DNA of 40,816 bases from Myxococcales bacterium (GTDB lineage Bacteria > Myxococcota > Myxococcia > Myxococcales > UBA5297). The notes beneath the pieces are model-generated. The model searched no databases. It saw nothing but the letters and a program-made list of their open reading frames with translations, and was not told where the DNA came from. This document shows positions 8,044 to 28,219 of this stretch, piece by piece (within the stretch, counting starts at the first letter, position 1; each line of letters begins with the position of its first letter). The position numbers and the translations under genes are program-made. The DNA lies in assembly GCA_031262165.1 (NCBI GenBank), contig JAISIF010000065.1, forward strand, positions 1 to 40,816, in the 5' to 3' direction.

Positions 8044-8210
8044 CCTAAGGACCTATCCCTTCATTCTCCCGTCGCCCCAGTTGTCCGTGAAACGCCAGTC
8101 TTCGTTGCTTCGCTCTTCACTTCCGACTGGAAGCTCAAAGCCTCGCACCTCGTCTGGCATTCCCCGTCCGGCGCGGTGCAAAGGTCCTCATGAAGGGATA
8201 AGTCCTAAGA
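8044..8210 (-). mobile_element. TIR element copy A (full length)
   Basis: This is a full-length member of the dispersed family, inverted relative to copies B and C. The left end CTAAGGACCTATCCCTTCAT pairs with the right end, whose complement reads CTTAGGACTTATCCCTTCAT. Inside, the complement carries the ACGGGGAATGCCAGA core, a CTTCCAGTCGGAAG hairpin and GGCGTTTCACGGAC, as in B and C. It lies between the GDT1-type gene and the MXAN_5187-like gene and fills half of that 343-base gap. The remainder (8211-8308) is an AT-rich leader with no other feature I can name. Confidence 0.75.
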
Positions 8211-11203: not shown

Positions 11204-11364
11204 TGAGGACTTATCCATCGATTAAAACCGAGCACCGCGAAGGACGGGGAATGCCAGATGAGAAGCGAGGCTTTGAGCTTCCAGACGGAAGTGACCATCG
11301 AAGCAAAGAATTCGGGCGTTTCACGGACGAGCGGAGCGACGGGATAATCGATGGATAAGTCCTT
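11204..11364 (+). mobile_element. TIR element copy B (full length)
   Basis: This copy defines the forward orientation used here. Its ends are GAGGACTTATCCATCGATTA and, inverted, TAATCGATGGATAAGTCCTTC. The body holds CACCGCGAAGGACGGGGAAT, the hairpin CTTCCAGACGGAAG, GGCGTTTCACGGAC and GCGACGGGATAATCGA. The element lies in the 568-base gap between the zinc-ribbon gene and pyrH. Confidence 0.75.
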
Positions 11365-11674
11365 CTTCTATTGCCATTGCCAAATAGAAACGCCGCTGCG
11401 AGGCACCCTGCGTTCTCGACGTTCCAATGGACAGCGCGCCTAGGCTGCAAAAAAAAGATTTCCTCGACATGAGCCATTCAGAATTCGCTTCGATTCAGCC
11501 TCGCGCCGACAAAAGAGGGATTCGTTCCAGGCATTAGATTCAATTCTTGGATTTATCACGTCAATAGAATGACGATTGAAATTCGTAAGAGCGTTGCGTG
11601 CAATGCCCTGCGAGCGATGGTCGACGGACGACGAAAAGGCCCTCGACCGACCTGCAAGCGACTCCCCTCTCACC

Positions 11675-13154: not shown

Positions 13155-13184
13155 GGCGCGATTATCCATCGCGCCCTTTTTATT
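13155..13184 (+). terminator. Rho-independent terminator after frr
   Basis: A perfect 7-bp stem GGCGCGA/TCGCGCC (13155-13161 and 13169-13175) with a 7-base loop is followed by CTTTTTATTT. Confidence 0.85.
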
Positions 13185-13346
13185 TAGGACTCATTCCTTC
13201 ATTAGGACTTTTGCACCGCGAAGGACGGGGAATGTCTGACTTTGGCGCGAGGCGGGAGTTTCCAGACGGAAGTAAAGCGCGAAACAACGAAGTCTGGCGT
13301 CTCACGGACAGGTGGGGCGACGGGATAATCAAGGAATAAGCCCTTA
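13184..13346 (+). mobile_element. TIR element copy C (full length)
   Basis: Same orientation and internal order as copy B: CACCGCGAAGGACGGGGAAT, TTTCCAGACGGAAG, CGTCTCACGGAC, GCGACGGGATAATC. The ends (TTAGGACTCATTCC and, inverted, GGAATAAGCCCTTA) have diverged in parallel, both changing TATCC to ATTCC. It begins exactly at the T-tract of the frr terminator. Confidence 0.7.
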
Positions 13347-15454: not shown

Positions 15455-15480
15455 GCGTCAGGGCCATCGACGCACCCCTT

Positions 15481-15632
15481 CTCCTCGTCGCTTCGCGTCG
15501 CCCCTCTCCCGCCAAACGGGAGAGGGATTTTTTGTGTTGCGTCGTTCGGGAAAGGGCCCTCCAGAGCATTCGCAATCTCCTCCATCCCCCGCTTGCAGGA
15601 GAGGGTCGACGCGAAGCGATGGAGTGAGGGCC
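15481..15632. repeat. GGGAGAGGG-type repeats, two inverted copies
   Basis: CGTCGCTTCGCGTCGCCCCT (15487-15506) and, inverted, GGGTCGACGCGAAGCGATGG (about 15603-15622) are two diverged copies of the REP-like unit also found at 7237-7292. The first copy supplies the terminator stem. Confidence 0.5.
15502..15534 (+). terminator. Strong rho-independent terminator after the lipoprotein gene
   Basis: A perfect 10-bp stem CCCTCTCCCG/CGGGAGAGGG (15502-15511 and 15517-15526) with loop CCAAA is followed by ATTTTTTG. The stem is a member of the dispersed GGGAGAGGG repeat family. Confidence 0.88.
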
Positions 15633-15636
15633 GACA

Positions 15637-15660
15637 GAGGGATAAGTCCTAAAGTCCTAA
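15637..15660 (+). repeat. Remnant end of the TIR element (copy D)
   Basis: GAGGGATAAGTCCTAAAGTC reproduces only the right terminal repeat of the TIR element; the body and the other end are missing. It lies 34 bases upstream of ruvB. Confidence 0.5.
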
Positions 15661-17664: not shown

Positions 17665-18115
17665 TTCCTTATCCTCCTGTTGTTATAAAGCGATTAGAAT
17701 CGATCCGTTTCAGCGAACAGCTTTATCAATCAATTCAAACAGCCAAACATGTCCCGACCTATTCGAGCAATGTGTTTTTGACATTTTCAATGGTGATGAA
17801 GGCTGCCCTTCCTCCAAAACTAGGCGCACCTCTGCCTTGATTGGATAAGTCCTTCGTTTCCGAAGAGGTCTATTCCATCAGAAAAGTTTTCGGACAGGGC
17901 TAATGATGAAATGATGGATTACTTGGTAGATTTGCCCTTCGCGATGGCGATGTGCAATCGAATGTAATCCATCGGTCAGCGCTCCCGTCGATGGAGAGAA
18001 ATTCCATCCAGCCGCCATCTGTTCTGTCTGTGTCGGGTGACACTGCCCGGATCGTGGTTATGAAATGCCGCCATCGAGGACACATCCGAGGCGACATCTT
18101 TCTCAGGAGACACAC
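17665..18115. other. 450-base AT-rich intergenic region with a repeat-end remnant (copy E)
   Basis: Divergent leaders of the minus-strand AT-rich gene and the BI-1 gene lie here. GGATAAGTCCTTCG (17842-17855) matches one terminal repeat of the TIR element. The following TTTCCGAAGAG and, some 30 bases on, GCTAATGATGAA also occur next to copy G (27947-27971), which suggests both fragments derive from a longer common unit. No further gene was found. Confidence 0.45.
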
Positions 18116-25123: not shown

Positions 25124-26509
25124 ATGACCGCCGCCCTCCTCATCTCCGAAGAGCGCATTCCCCGCGACTTGCCCGCCGAACGGGCCGTGCTGGGCGGTGT
25201 CCTCTCGGACAACCGCGTGCTCGTCGACATCGCGACGCTGCTCACGCCAGAGGATTTCCACTCGGATGCGCACACCGCGATCTTCGAAGCGATCCTGGCC
25301 CTCGATCACACGCACCAGGCCATCGACACGCTCACCGTGGCCTCGCGCCTCAAGAGCAGCGGCAAGCTCAGCCTCGCGGGCGGTCCCGCCTATCTGGCCG
25401 ACCTCGAGACGTCGGTGCCGACCACAGCGAACATCCAGAGCTATGCGCGCCTCGTCAAAGAGAAGTCCATCAAGCGCCGGATGCTGGCCGCCTGCACCGA
25501 TCTCTCGAACCTCGCCGTCGAGGCCTCGACAGAGGTCGAGGCCCTGCTCGACGAGGCGCAGCGCCGCATGTTCGCGATCGCCGAGCAGCGCCAGGAGGGG
25601 GACCTGCGCTCGATCGACAAGATCATGGCCGAGACGATCGACATCATCCAGACGATGCAGCAGTCGGGTGGTGGCATCACGGGCCTGGCCACGGGTTTCA
25701 TCGACCTCGACAAGATGCTGACCGGTCTGCACGGCGGCGAGCTCATCATTCTCGCGGCGCGCCCTGGCTGCGGCAAGACGTCGCTCGCGCTCAACATCTG
25801 CGCGAACGCCGCGCTGCGCGAACGTCAGGCCGTCGCGATCTTCAGCCTCGAAATGCCGGCCGATCAGCTCGGGATGCGCCTTTTGTCCGCCGAGGCGCGC
25901 GTCAGCCTCAAGGCGCTGCGTTCTGGCTTCCTCAACCGAGAGAACCAGCACAAGATCGAGCAGGCGTGCTTCCAGGTGGGCGACGCGCCGATCCACATCG
26001 ACGACTCGGGCTCGCTGAGCGCCTTCGATCTGCGCACCAAGGTGCGGCGCCTCCAGGCCAAGCTCTCCAAGATGGATCCGCCTCAGTCGCTCGGCCTCGT
26101 GATGATCGACTACCTCCAGCTCATGCACCAGCGTGGGCGCGTCGAGAGTCGGCAGCAGGAAGTCCAGGAGATCAGCCGCACCCTCAAGGCGCTCGCCAAA
26201 GAGCTGAGCGTGCCGATCCTCGCCCTCTCGCAGCTCAACCGAAAGGTCGAGGAGCGCCGTGGCACCAAGAGTCGGCCCATGCTCTCCGATCTGCGCGAGT
26301 CTGGATCGATCGAGCAGGACGCGGACGTGGTGCTCTTCATCCATCGCGACTTCGATGCTGCCGATGCCGAGGGAGGCCACGCGCCGCCAGGCGCGGGCGC
26401 CGAGGTCGAGCTCGTCATCGCCAAGCAGCGAAACGGCCCGACCGGCGAAATCCCCTTGCTCCTCTTCAGCGAGTTCACCCGGTTCGAAAACCCCGCGCGG
26501 GGGGAATGA
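25124..26509 (+). CDS. dnaB: Replicative DNA helicase DnaB
   Basis: The 461-residue product is the hexameric 5'-3' helicase at the replication fork. The N-terminal primase-binding domain runs about 10-115 (RDLPAERAVLGGVLSDN, EDFHSDAHTAIFEAIL, AYLADLETSVPTTANI). The RecA-like domain begins about 190 (GLATGFIDLDKMLTGLHGGE) with Walker A ARPGCGKTS (K218, T219; a Gly-Cys in place of the more usual Ser-Met), FSLEMPADQLGMRLLS, Walker B LVMIDYLQLM, SQLNRKVEERRGTKSRPMLS with its arginine finger region, and SGSIEQDADVVLFIHRD. Length is typical and no intein is present. AGAGAGG lies about 11 bases before the ATG. An AT-rich promoter region precedes it. Confidence 0.97.
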   Translation: MTAALLISEERIPRDLPAERAVLGGVLSDNRVLVDIATLLTPEDFHSDAHTAIFEAILALDHTHQAIDTLTVASRLKSSGKLSLAGGPAYLADLETSVPTTANIQSYARLVKEKSIKRRMLAACTDLSNLAVEASTEVEALLDEAQRRMFAIAEQRQEGDLRSIDKIMAETIDIIQTMQQSGGGITGLATGFIDLDKMLTGLHGGELIILAARPGCGKTSLALNICANAALRERQAVAIFSLEMPADQLGMRLLSAEARVSLKALRSGFLNRENQHKIEQACFQVGDAPIHIDDSGSLSAFDLRTKVRRLQAKLSKMDPPQSLGLVMIDYLQLMHQRGRVESRQQEVQEISRTLKALAKELSVPILALSQLNRKVEERRGTKSRPMLSDLRESGSIEQDADVVLFIHRDFDAADAEGGHAPPGAGAEVELVIAKQRNGPTGEIPLLLFSEFTRFENPARGE

Positions 26510-26550
26510 AAAGCCTCCCTCGATGAAGGCGGTGGCGCAAAGCGTCGGAG
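26508..26550 (-). repeat. Left arm of an inverted repeat pair around the DUF559 remnant
   Basis: Its complement reads CCTCCGACGCTTTGCGCCAC and ends GGAGGCTTTT. It corresponds to CCTCCGGCGCTTCGCGCCAT...GGAGGCTTTTTT at 27062-27110. It starts at the dnaB stop codon. Confidence 0.5.
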
Positions 26551-26665
26551 GGCATGGTCGGAGTTGTATGTCCTTGAAATACAACGAATGCCTCATCCCA
26601 CGAGCCAAAGAATTTCGCCCCAATATGACACGGCAAGAAAATAATCTTTGATATGATTCTTTTCT

Positions 26666-26766
26666 CTAAGGGCTTATCCCTTCATTAATTAGGACCGAGC
26701 ACTGCGAACTCTGGCGTTTCACGGACGAGCTTTGGCGACGGGATAATCGAGGGATAAACCCTAAGT
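26666..26766 (+). mobile_element. TIR element copy F (internally deleted, about 100 bp)
   Basis: Ends CTAAGGGCTTATCCCTTCAT and, inverted, GAGGGATAAACCCTAAG are well preserved. The body retains GCACTGCGAA and GGCGTTTCACGGACGAGC...GGCGACGGGATAATCGA but lacks about 60 bases that include the ACGGGGAATG core and hairpin. It abuts the truncated 5' edge of the DUF559 remnant. Confidence 0.75.
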
Positions 26767-26771
26767 ATCCA

Positions 26772-26975
26772 TTTCGTTTCCAACGCCCAAAAAACGGGAA
26801 GTTCATTATAGGTTTTTACTTTCTTGAGGCGAAACCGATCATCGACTTGGAAGGGAATCAACATGACACAGAGGATGGCGTGACCCAAGACCCTGAGCGC
26901 ACGTCCATTCTCAAATCCTATGGCCTTCACATCATTCGGTTTTCAAATCTCGACGTCGAACAAAACCTTTCTCGG
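26772..26975 (+). pseudogene. DUF559 (vsr-like endonuclease fold) gene remnant, N-terminus missing
   Basis: In one frame this reads FRFQRPKNGKFIIGFYFLEA, then KPIIDLEGNQHDTEDG and ERTSILKSYGLHIIRFSNLD, then VEQNLSR. From memory this follows the DUF559 pattern closely (RRQ.PIG..IVDF....KLVIE.DG.QH, D..R...L...G..V.RF.N.DV..NL), including the catalytic-type D/E and QH residues. The normal N-terminal 30 or so residues are absent: the frame runs straight into repeat copy F. No start codon or Shine-Dalgarno fits and the C-terminal end is not clean, so the gene is dead or a fragment. The protein family has the very-short-patch-repair endonuclease fold, usually of unknown role. Confidence 0.65.
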
Positions 26976-27061
26976 CGTCAGTCAGACAATTATCGGAGCC
27001 ATCAAACGATCCAATGCTTCAAAGAACAATCAATCGTTCCTCTTGTCTTTGACCGCCACTT

Positions 27062-27110
27062 CCTCCGGCGCTTCGCGCCATCTCCCTCGATGGATGAAGG
27101 AGGCTTTTTT
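27062..27110 (+). terminator. Repeat arm with terminator-like hairpin overlapping the maf ribosome-binding site
   Basis: CTCCCTC (27082-27088) and GAAGGAG (27096-27102) can pair with one mismatch, followed by GC and TTTTTT (27105-27110). The 3' arm contains AAGGAGG (27097-27103), nine bases before the maf ATG, so the Shine-Dalgarno lies within the hairpin. It is the right partner of the inverted repeat at 26508-26550. Confidence 0.5.
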
Positions 27111-27112
27111 CC

Positions 27113-27688: not shown

Positions 27689-28219
27689 ATCGATTTATTT
27701 TAATAGGCGCCCCTGCTTTGCCGAGGGATCATTACTTCAAATCCATAAAATGGAATGAGTAGCACTCTGGCGATGTGGACATAAGGGCGAGTATCATAGC
27801 ATTTTGAGTTTATATCGATGGCTCTTGTTCCCTTATAATTGTGGATGATCCCTAAGGACATATCCCTCAATTATCCCGTCACCCCGCTTATCCGTAAAAA
27901 AACTATCCTTCGCATTGCTGGATCCTAATTGAGAGATAAGTCCTAAGTTTCCGAGGAGAGCTAATGATGAATGACGCTTGAAATCTGTAGGGGATCGACG
28001 AATCGAAAGATCGCCTCGGAAATTTTCCGACCTCGTTCAGCGATTCCTCATCATCTCGATTTCGGCTGTCGTTGGTTCTTTGTCCCCTCAATTTCCCTGG
28101 ATTGGCTGACACCCGTCATCCCTTGACCCCTGCGCGCGGGCCTGTCAGAGGCGCCGCCCCTTGCTTGGTCAGCCCAGCCGTTCGCCCATGACTCATCCCT
28201 GTTCTAAGAGGTGATTTTC
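27689..28219. other. 530-base AT-rich gap holding TIR element copy G
   Basis: Apart from copy G, the region is AT-rich (27690-27850) and holds an inverted pair TTTCCGAGG (27947-27955) / CCTCGGAAA (28013-28021). The segment TTTCCGAGGAG...GCTAATGATGAA matches the 17857-17910 region beside copy E. No gene, tRNA or clear promoter was identified. Confidence 0.4.
27849..27956 (-). mobile_element. TIR element copy G (internally deleted)
   Basis: Read on the complement, it begins CTTAGGACTTATCTCTCAAT and ends GACGGGATAATTGAGGGATA followed by TGTCCTTAGG. The body keeps CAATGCGAAGGAT but has lost the central hairpin section. It is inverted relative to copies B, C and F and lies between maf and the protease gene. 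Confidence 0.7.

Follow-up and report, generated by a model that had tools for sequence, protein, structure and literature searches.

Between two genes that we take to be dnaB and maf, the DNA analysed here carries a DUF559 gene that is split by a miniature element, with both halves still present. The window, meaning the whole stretch of 40,816 nucleotides from a Myxococcales bacterium, holds two inverted palindromic repeats that bracket this gene. These repeats were missed in the initial annotation and are more informative than the gene fragment itself. The same layout is found around solitary DUF559 genes in other genomes, and the window feature is probably a dead copy of a REPtron-like mobile unit that is very small and carries a nuclease gene of the Vsr/I-Bth0305I fold.

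A split gene between dnaB and maf

The features of the locus are as follows.

25124-26509, plus strand: upstream neighbour, presumably dnaB; an open reading frame with DnaB-type sequence
26509-27112, plus strand: the complete 604-bp unit, made up of the left arm, the DUF559 gene interrupted by copy F, and the right arm; delimited by the bracket and the GC contrast
26509-26561, no strand assigned: left inverted-repeat arm, AAAAGCCTCCCTCGATG...GTCGGAGGGCATGG, its first base being also the final base of the dnaB stop codon; recognised by aligning it with the reverse-complemented right arm
26568-26666, plus strand: N-terminal half of the DUF559 gene
26649-26651, plus strand: in-frame stop codon within the N-terminal half
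26667-26764, no strand assigned: copy F, a terminal inverted repeat (TIR) element inside the DUF559 gene, with a 92-bp core at 26670-26761
26763-26975, plus strand: C-terminal part of the DUF559 gene, with clear homology to about 26966
27053-27108, no strand assigned: right inverted-repeat arm, ...CCTCCGGCGCTTCGCGCCATCTCCCTCGATGGATGAAGGAGGCTTTT, directly before the maf start, recognised by the arm alignment and by related sequences elsewhere in the same genome
27113-27688, plus strand: downstream neighbour, presumably maf; an open reading frame with homologues in 39 of the 40 genomes searched, its own included

Downstream of copy F, the translation of 26772-27053 matches PF04480 (8.4e-12, 45.4 bits against a cut-off of 20.6, profile positions 33-99). 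This agrees with the initial annotation, which had read a DUF559 fragment from 26772 adjoining a TIR element, and a genome-level profile search independently recovers the match at 26727-26975 with 47.1 bits. The annotation had also supposed that copy F replaced the N-terminal part of the protein, and this does not hold. Upstream of copy F and in the same phase, positions 26568-26648 encode a 27-residue N-terminus (MSLKYNECLIPRAKEFRPNMTRQENNL) that aligns with intact relatives. Compared with the intact relative L079, the N-terminal half is identical at 18/30 residues and reaches a best BLOSUM62 score of 98, against a mean of 31 and a maximum of 44 in 300 shuffles. As the sole query, this half (33 residues) finds no match in Pfam; joined to the C-terminal half as one query, it contributes to a match of 53.1 bits over profile positions 6-99. 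With the N-terminal half on one side of copy F and the C-terminal part on the other, both in one phase, copy F sits inside the gene.

Further changes mark the gene as decayed. The in-frame stop codon falls at a column that is invariant in 33 intact relatives. Gly stands in place of the Asp that precedes Phe-Tyr, and Asp-x-Glu in place of Glu-x-Asp; that Asp and both acidic positions of the second motif are likewise invariant in the 33 relatives. With these three positions changed, the conserved acidic residues of the DUF559 active-site region are not intact in the window copy. A C-terminal frameshift is at most suggestive, its score of 37 lying below the shuffle maximum of 42. A DUF559 match is absent from both same-genus genomes searched, which fits a gain in the lineage of the window. 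The earlier picture of a DUF559 gene gained and then decayed through an element keeps the gain, the decay and the involvement of the element, but not the loss of the N-terminal part.

Copy F is shorter than the common form of its family, which measures about 155-165 bp and has TIRs around GGACTTATCC. The family is represented by at least 40 DNA matches, and its end motif occurs 169 times in forward and 163 times in reverse orientation in its own genome, giving 332 recognisable ends against 0 for the reversed control. Among the 30 genomes searched, its own is the sole one with a match; the other 29, including two of the same genus, have none. A 3-bp match, TAA, flanks copy F on both sides. Identical 3-mers flank 13/41 copies of the family, compared with 24% for mismatched ends; such a match is not clearly commoner than mismatched ends give, and we therefore claim no target duplication for copy F. 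A search for an autonomous partner of the family did not find one. Elsewhere in the window, the family is represented by full copies or single ends at 8046-8208, 11204-11365, 13184-13346, 15638-15652, and 17841-17855. Another member lies just downstream of maf, at 27853-27946, within a low-GC stretch (27689-28210, GC 48.5%).

Inverted-repeat arms

The two arms measure about 55 bp each and form imperfect inverted repeats. Their alignment score of 51 compares with a shuffled mean of 19 and a maximum of 35, and was reached in 0/2000 shuffles. Under the geometry applied to all loci, the window bracket scores 40, a value attained at 0/380 control positions in the window (maximum 35). The interior differs in composition from its neighbours: dnaB and maf have a GC content of 66%, whereas the parts of the DUF559 gene have 45-47% and copy F has 51%. 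The arms of the window copy fold weakly (-7.1 and -10.6 kcal/mol), and the ends of the unit are similar to those of units in Clostridia. No RNA family is found in the window at the Rfam gathering threshold.

Sequences related to the arms are matched at nine other places in the same genome (E up to 0.1). By eye, five of these (L173, L174, L175, L176, and L178) are inverted palindrome pairs in the order opposite to that of the window unit, and the rest look like chance matches. Because the related arms stand in back-to-back pairs of opposite order, they are not simple deletion products of the window unit. Comparison of the locus across relatives gave no empty dnaB-maf site: dnaB was not found by tblastn near maf in 15 relatives (L046-L060; flanks of 1.5 kb, less at contig ends), and the window locus (L045) is the only one that has it.

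Recurrence of the bracket around solitary DUF559 genes

Brackets were scored by comparing the 350 bp upstream of a gene with the reverse complement of the 350 bp downstream, using a threshold of 34 that was set post hoc. For the nearest DUF559 relatives, 80 loci were kept of 357, and 70 were tested, the remaining 10 being too short. Most of these genes are from Clostridia; a few come from Pseudomonadota, and one lies on a contig labelled Anaerolineaceae. The threshold is reached at 51/70 of these loci, which are mostly clostridial, versus 8/1172 shifted control positions in the same loci. Stand-alone DUF559 genes of the phylum of the window behave in the same way, with 21/24 bracketed versus 3/235 controls. 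This second set comprises the loci with enough flank among 30, taken best matches first (omitted were two partial matches and four loci near the end of a contig).

After dereplication by protein similarity, the bracket is present in 20/34 cases from the genome collection and in 19/22 from the phylum. Among maf genes, which served as a comparison, it is present in 1/14. Scores below the threshold were obtained at 19/70 and 3/24 DUF559 loci, and E. coli ycjD, with a score of 20, is also unbracketed. The only other DUF559 match in the genome of the window (L001, contig C140) lies in frame within a 563-aa ORF that resembles a restriction/methylase gene; it is bracketed by a palindromic repeat different from that of the window, with a score of 123.

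Discrete units and their gene-less derivatives

In many Clostridia loci, the common sequence is limited to a stretch of about 460 bp, from AAAAGCCTCCC to GGGAGCCTTTTT; the sequence outside differs and the loci are unrelated. A subset of these loci has about 120 bp more in common on the right. Full units show a narrow spacing, with arm starts 415-433 nt apart in 34/36 of those at the fetched loci. Gene-less arm pairs are shorter: 13/20 are spaced at 89-132 nt and the other seven at 180-279 nt, six of the latter being one cluster in L132. These numbers do not describe a random sample, because either DUF559 or the arms had been the criterion for retrieving the loci. Full units and gene-less pairs use the identical two distinct arms in a fixed arrangement. 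The arm motif is present in 17/20 host genomes, with 0 occurrences of the reversed control.

In two G243 loci, the pairs retain ATGCAGAGAAAA, with which the DUF559 gene begins, and continue directly with the terminal part of the unit; they thus have the appearance of gene-bearing units that lost their interior. At least the miniature units that keep the gene start thus derive from units with the gene. The gene-bearing unit occurs in 4/35 genomes of one genus. Neither a target duplication nor a clean empty site was found for it in Flavonifractor, Butyricicoccus, or the fetched loci. Among plasmids no close relatives were found, among viral contigs none were confirmed, and among phages two records appeared, both below 60% identity.

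Selection and predicted fold of the protein

The DUF559 protein is under purifying selection, with a median dN/dS of 0.06 across the 94 pairs, of 406, with dS of 0.05-1. For the intact Flavonifractor protein (L138), a structure was predicted with a pLDDT of 88.6. In Foldseek searches, this model matches 3hrl, an endonuclease-like protein of Neisseria, and the homing endonuclease I-Bth0305I (3r3p; E 1.6e-4, TM 0.81 on target), with a weaker match to Vsr (1vsr; prob 0.99, E 0.083). The family profile points to the same structures by sequence, with 3hrl_A at 4.7e-24 and 3r3p_A at 0.011. Searches of the NCBIfam, PADLOC, and PHROGs libraries returned weak or sub-cut-off matches only.

Proposed origin and alternatives

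The bracketed architecture is observed, and mobilisation by the DUF559 nuclease is the mechanism that we infer from it. A unit consisting of a single DUF559 gene between two inverted palindromic arms would have landed between dnaB and maf in the lineage of the window. Later insertion of the miniature element F, together with point changes, would have broken the gene. The intact nuclease may recognise the palindromic arms and cut or nick there. Through repair or strand transfer, new sites could then receive copies of the unit and of its derivatives without the gene, by analogy with what is proposed for RAYTs and REPINs.

The arms might instead be ordinary REP or terminator repeats that owe their movement to another agent, such as a RAYT, with DUF559 genes caught between two of them or homing into them; the nuclease may then be a homing enzyme that targets the repeats and not their mover. 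Support for such a history comes from REPs being known insertion targets of IS elements and from GTAG REPs being thought to be mobilised by RAYTs, as described in the two sources (PMC1525189; PMC3733652), and, 3hrl aside, the nearest solved fold belongs to a homing endonuclease, I-Bth0305I. We regard it as unlikely, given that miniature units retain the start of the DUF559 gene and that two distinct arms keep their arrangement in full and miniature units alike. A further alternative treats DUF559 as a host repair or mismatch nuclease, comparable to Caulobacter VsrA, around which repeats merely accumulate in intergenic space. The strong purifying selection and the unbracketed ycjD are compatible with a resident gene of this kind, as is the requirement for VsrA, which has a DUF559 domain, in the SOS response of a methyltransferase mutant, according to the accessible text of that study (PMC12907096). 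Yet brackets of this kind are lacking at the control positions of the loci, and the unit appears with sharp ends at unrelated loci and in few genomes of the one genus surveyed, which makes a resident gene quite improbable.

The window feature could also be an ordinary pseudogene with an insertion, bracketed by two terminators that happen to resemble each other. With GGAGGCTTTTTT at the end of the right arm and AAAAGCCTCC at the start of the left, the two together could once have been one terminator, and the weak folding of the arms would suit this origin. A chance bracket is disfavoured by the 380 window positions and the 2000 shuffles, none of which reached the observed scores; the layout is that of the relatives, and GC is low between the arms. 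We judge this origin highly improbable.

A dead copy of a mobile unit, the reading preferred here, can be extended from the window to the family. Solitary DUF559 genes would then encode the enzymes of a separate class of mobile elements that crosses phyla, its members about 460 bp long, each with one Vsr-fold nuclease, palindromic inverted ends, and gene-less miniature offspring. This class would have produced some of the REP-like repeats for which no transposase is known, and the window copy would be a fossil in a myxobacterium-like genome. We put this extension forward tentatively, as a possibility somewhat short of probable. The DUF559 family is common, and no role has been agreed for it; a systematic link to palindromic repeats would give it a testable role and would provide a candidate enzyme for some orphan repeats. 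To our knowledge, the DUF559 unit would rank among the smallest mobile units that carry a gene.

Relation to known systems

The closest parallel is the REPtron, or RAYT-REPIN system, in which an IS200/IS605-like Y1 transposase gene lies between REP palindromes. Both systems have a single gene bordered by inverted palindromic repeats. Dispersed gene-less inverted doublets are likewise present in the Clostridia genomes, whereas the genome of the window has only degenerate pairs in reversed order. The enzymes differ, being an HUH Y1 transposase in one case and DUF559 with a Vsr/I-Bth0305I-type fold in the other, and a further difference is that the DUF559 unit recurs, gene included, in similar form at several unrelated loci. 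RAYTs have been proposed to spread REPINs, as stated in the accessible parts of two reports (PMC3116915; PMC8266576). For palindromic repeats of the CGTC type, Di Nocera et al. 2013 named no dedicated transposase (PMC3733652).

Relatedness by fold leads to two nucleases. The EDxHD homing endonuclease I-Bth0305I has the same catalytic fold as is predicted for the intact DUF559 relative. The DUF559 gene differs by bringing its own palindromic borders, and no intron or intein context was seen for its unit, which lies between two genes in a window without any Rfam family. The Vsr repair endonuclease has a fold related to the predicted DUF559 model. In Caulobacter VsrA, which carries a DUF559 domain, the proposed repair role is the best functional lead for the family, and the accessible text of that article mentions no palindrome bracket (PMC12907096). 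An independent hint comes from Legionella, where segments with a transposase and DUF559 are recombination hotspots in the part of the study available (PMC12308824).

Measured against MITEs, copy F and the Clostridia miniature units are alike in being short, multi-copy, inverted-ended, and gene-less. Terminal inverted repeats and high copy number are both found for copy F, and its family has ends unlike the DUF559 arms. The surroundings of the gene suggest that DUF559 has a role in a mobile unit, of which no description was found within the open-licence literature. Among the papers found there by full-text search, no title or abstract start connects DUF559 or Vsr-like genes with palindromic repeats; such a link could be published elsewhere. 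The words endonuclease, nuclease, RAYT, and Clostridia are all absent from RepRanger (PMC12306157).

Variation at individual loci

In Flavonifractor, 5 related loci with both flanks, of 14 examined, lack a larger segment of 1.37 kb. This segment (L138, 1041-2408) carries the DUF559 unit together with another ORF and sits in the loop of an apparent transcription-terminator hairpin. The locus was rejected as a clean empty site, as the missing piece is the segment with the second ORF and not the unit alone. Butyricicoccus provided no clean empty site. E. coli ycjD was likewise set aside as an empty-site system: its locus is variable (at least 80% of the locus is present in 3330/5426 genomes), and the three non-matching genomes examined carry other genes at the position of this unbracketed gene.

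At an orthologous site in L241 and L230, one genome has a miniature unit and the other a single short hairpin, possibly a footprint. Two other matches in the same search proved to be tandem repeats within L124 and were discarded. One locus is shared by six genomes of one genus (L149, L151, L152, L159, L160, and L161), with flanks about 92-97% identical. Between these flanks, the DUF559 genes are divergent in some pairs, as if a cassette had been replaced. In the window itself, a REP-like inverted repeat of the CCCTCTCCC type at 15477-15630 resembles the brackets of DUF559 genes in other genomes of the phylum.
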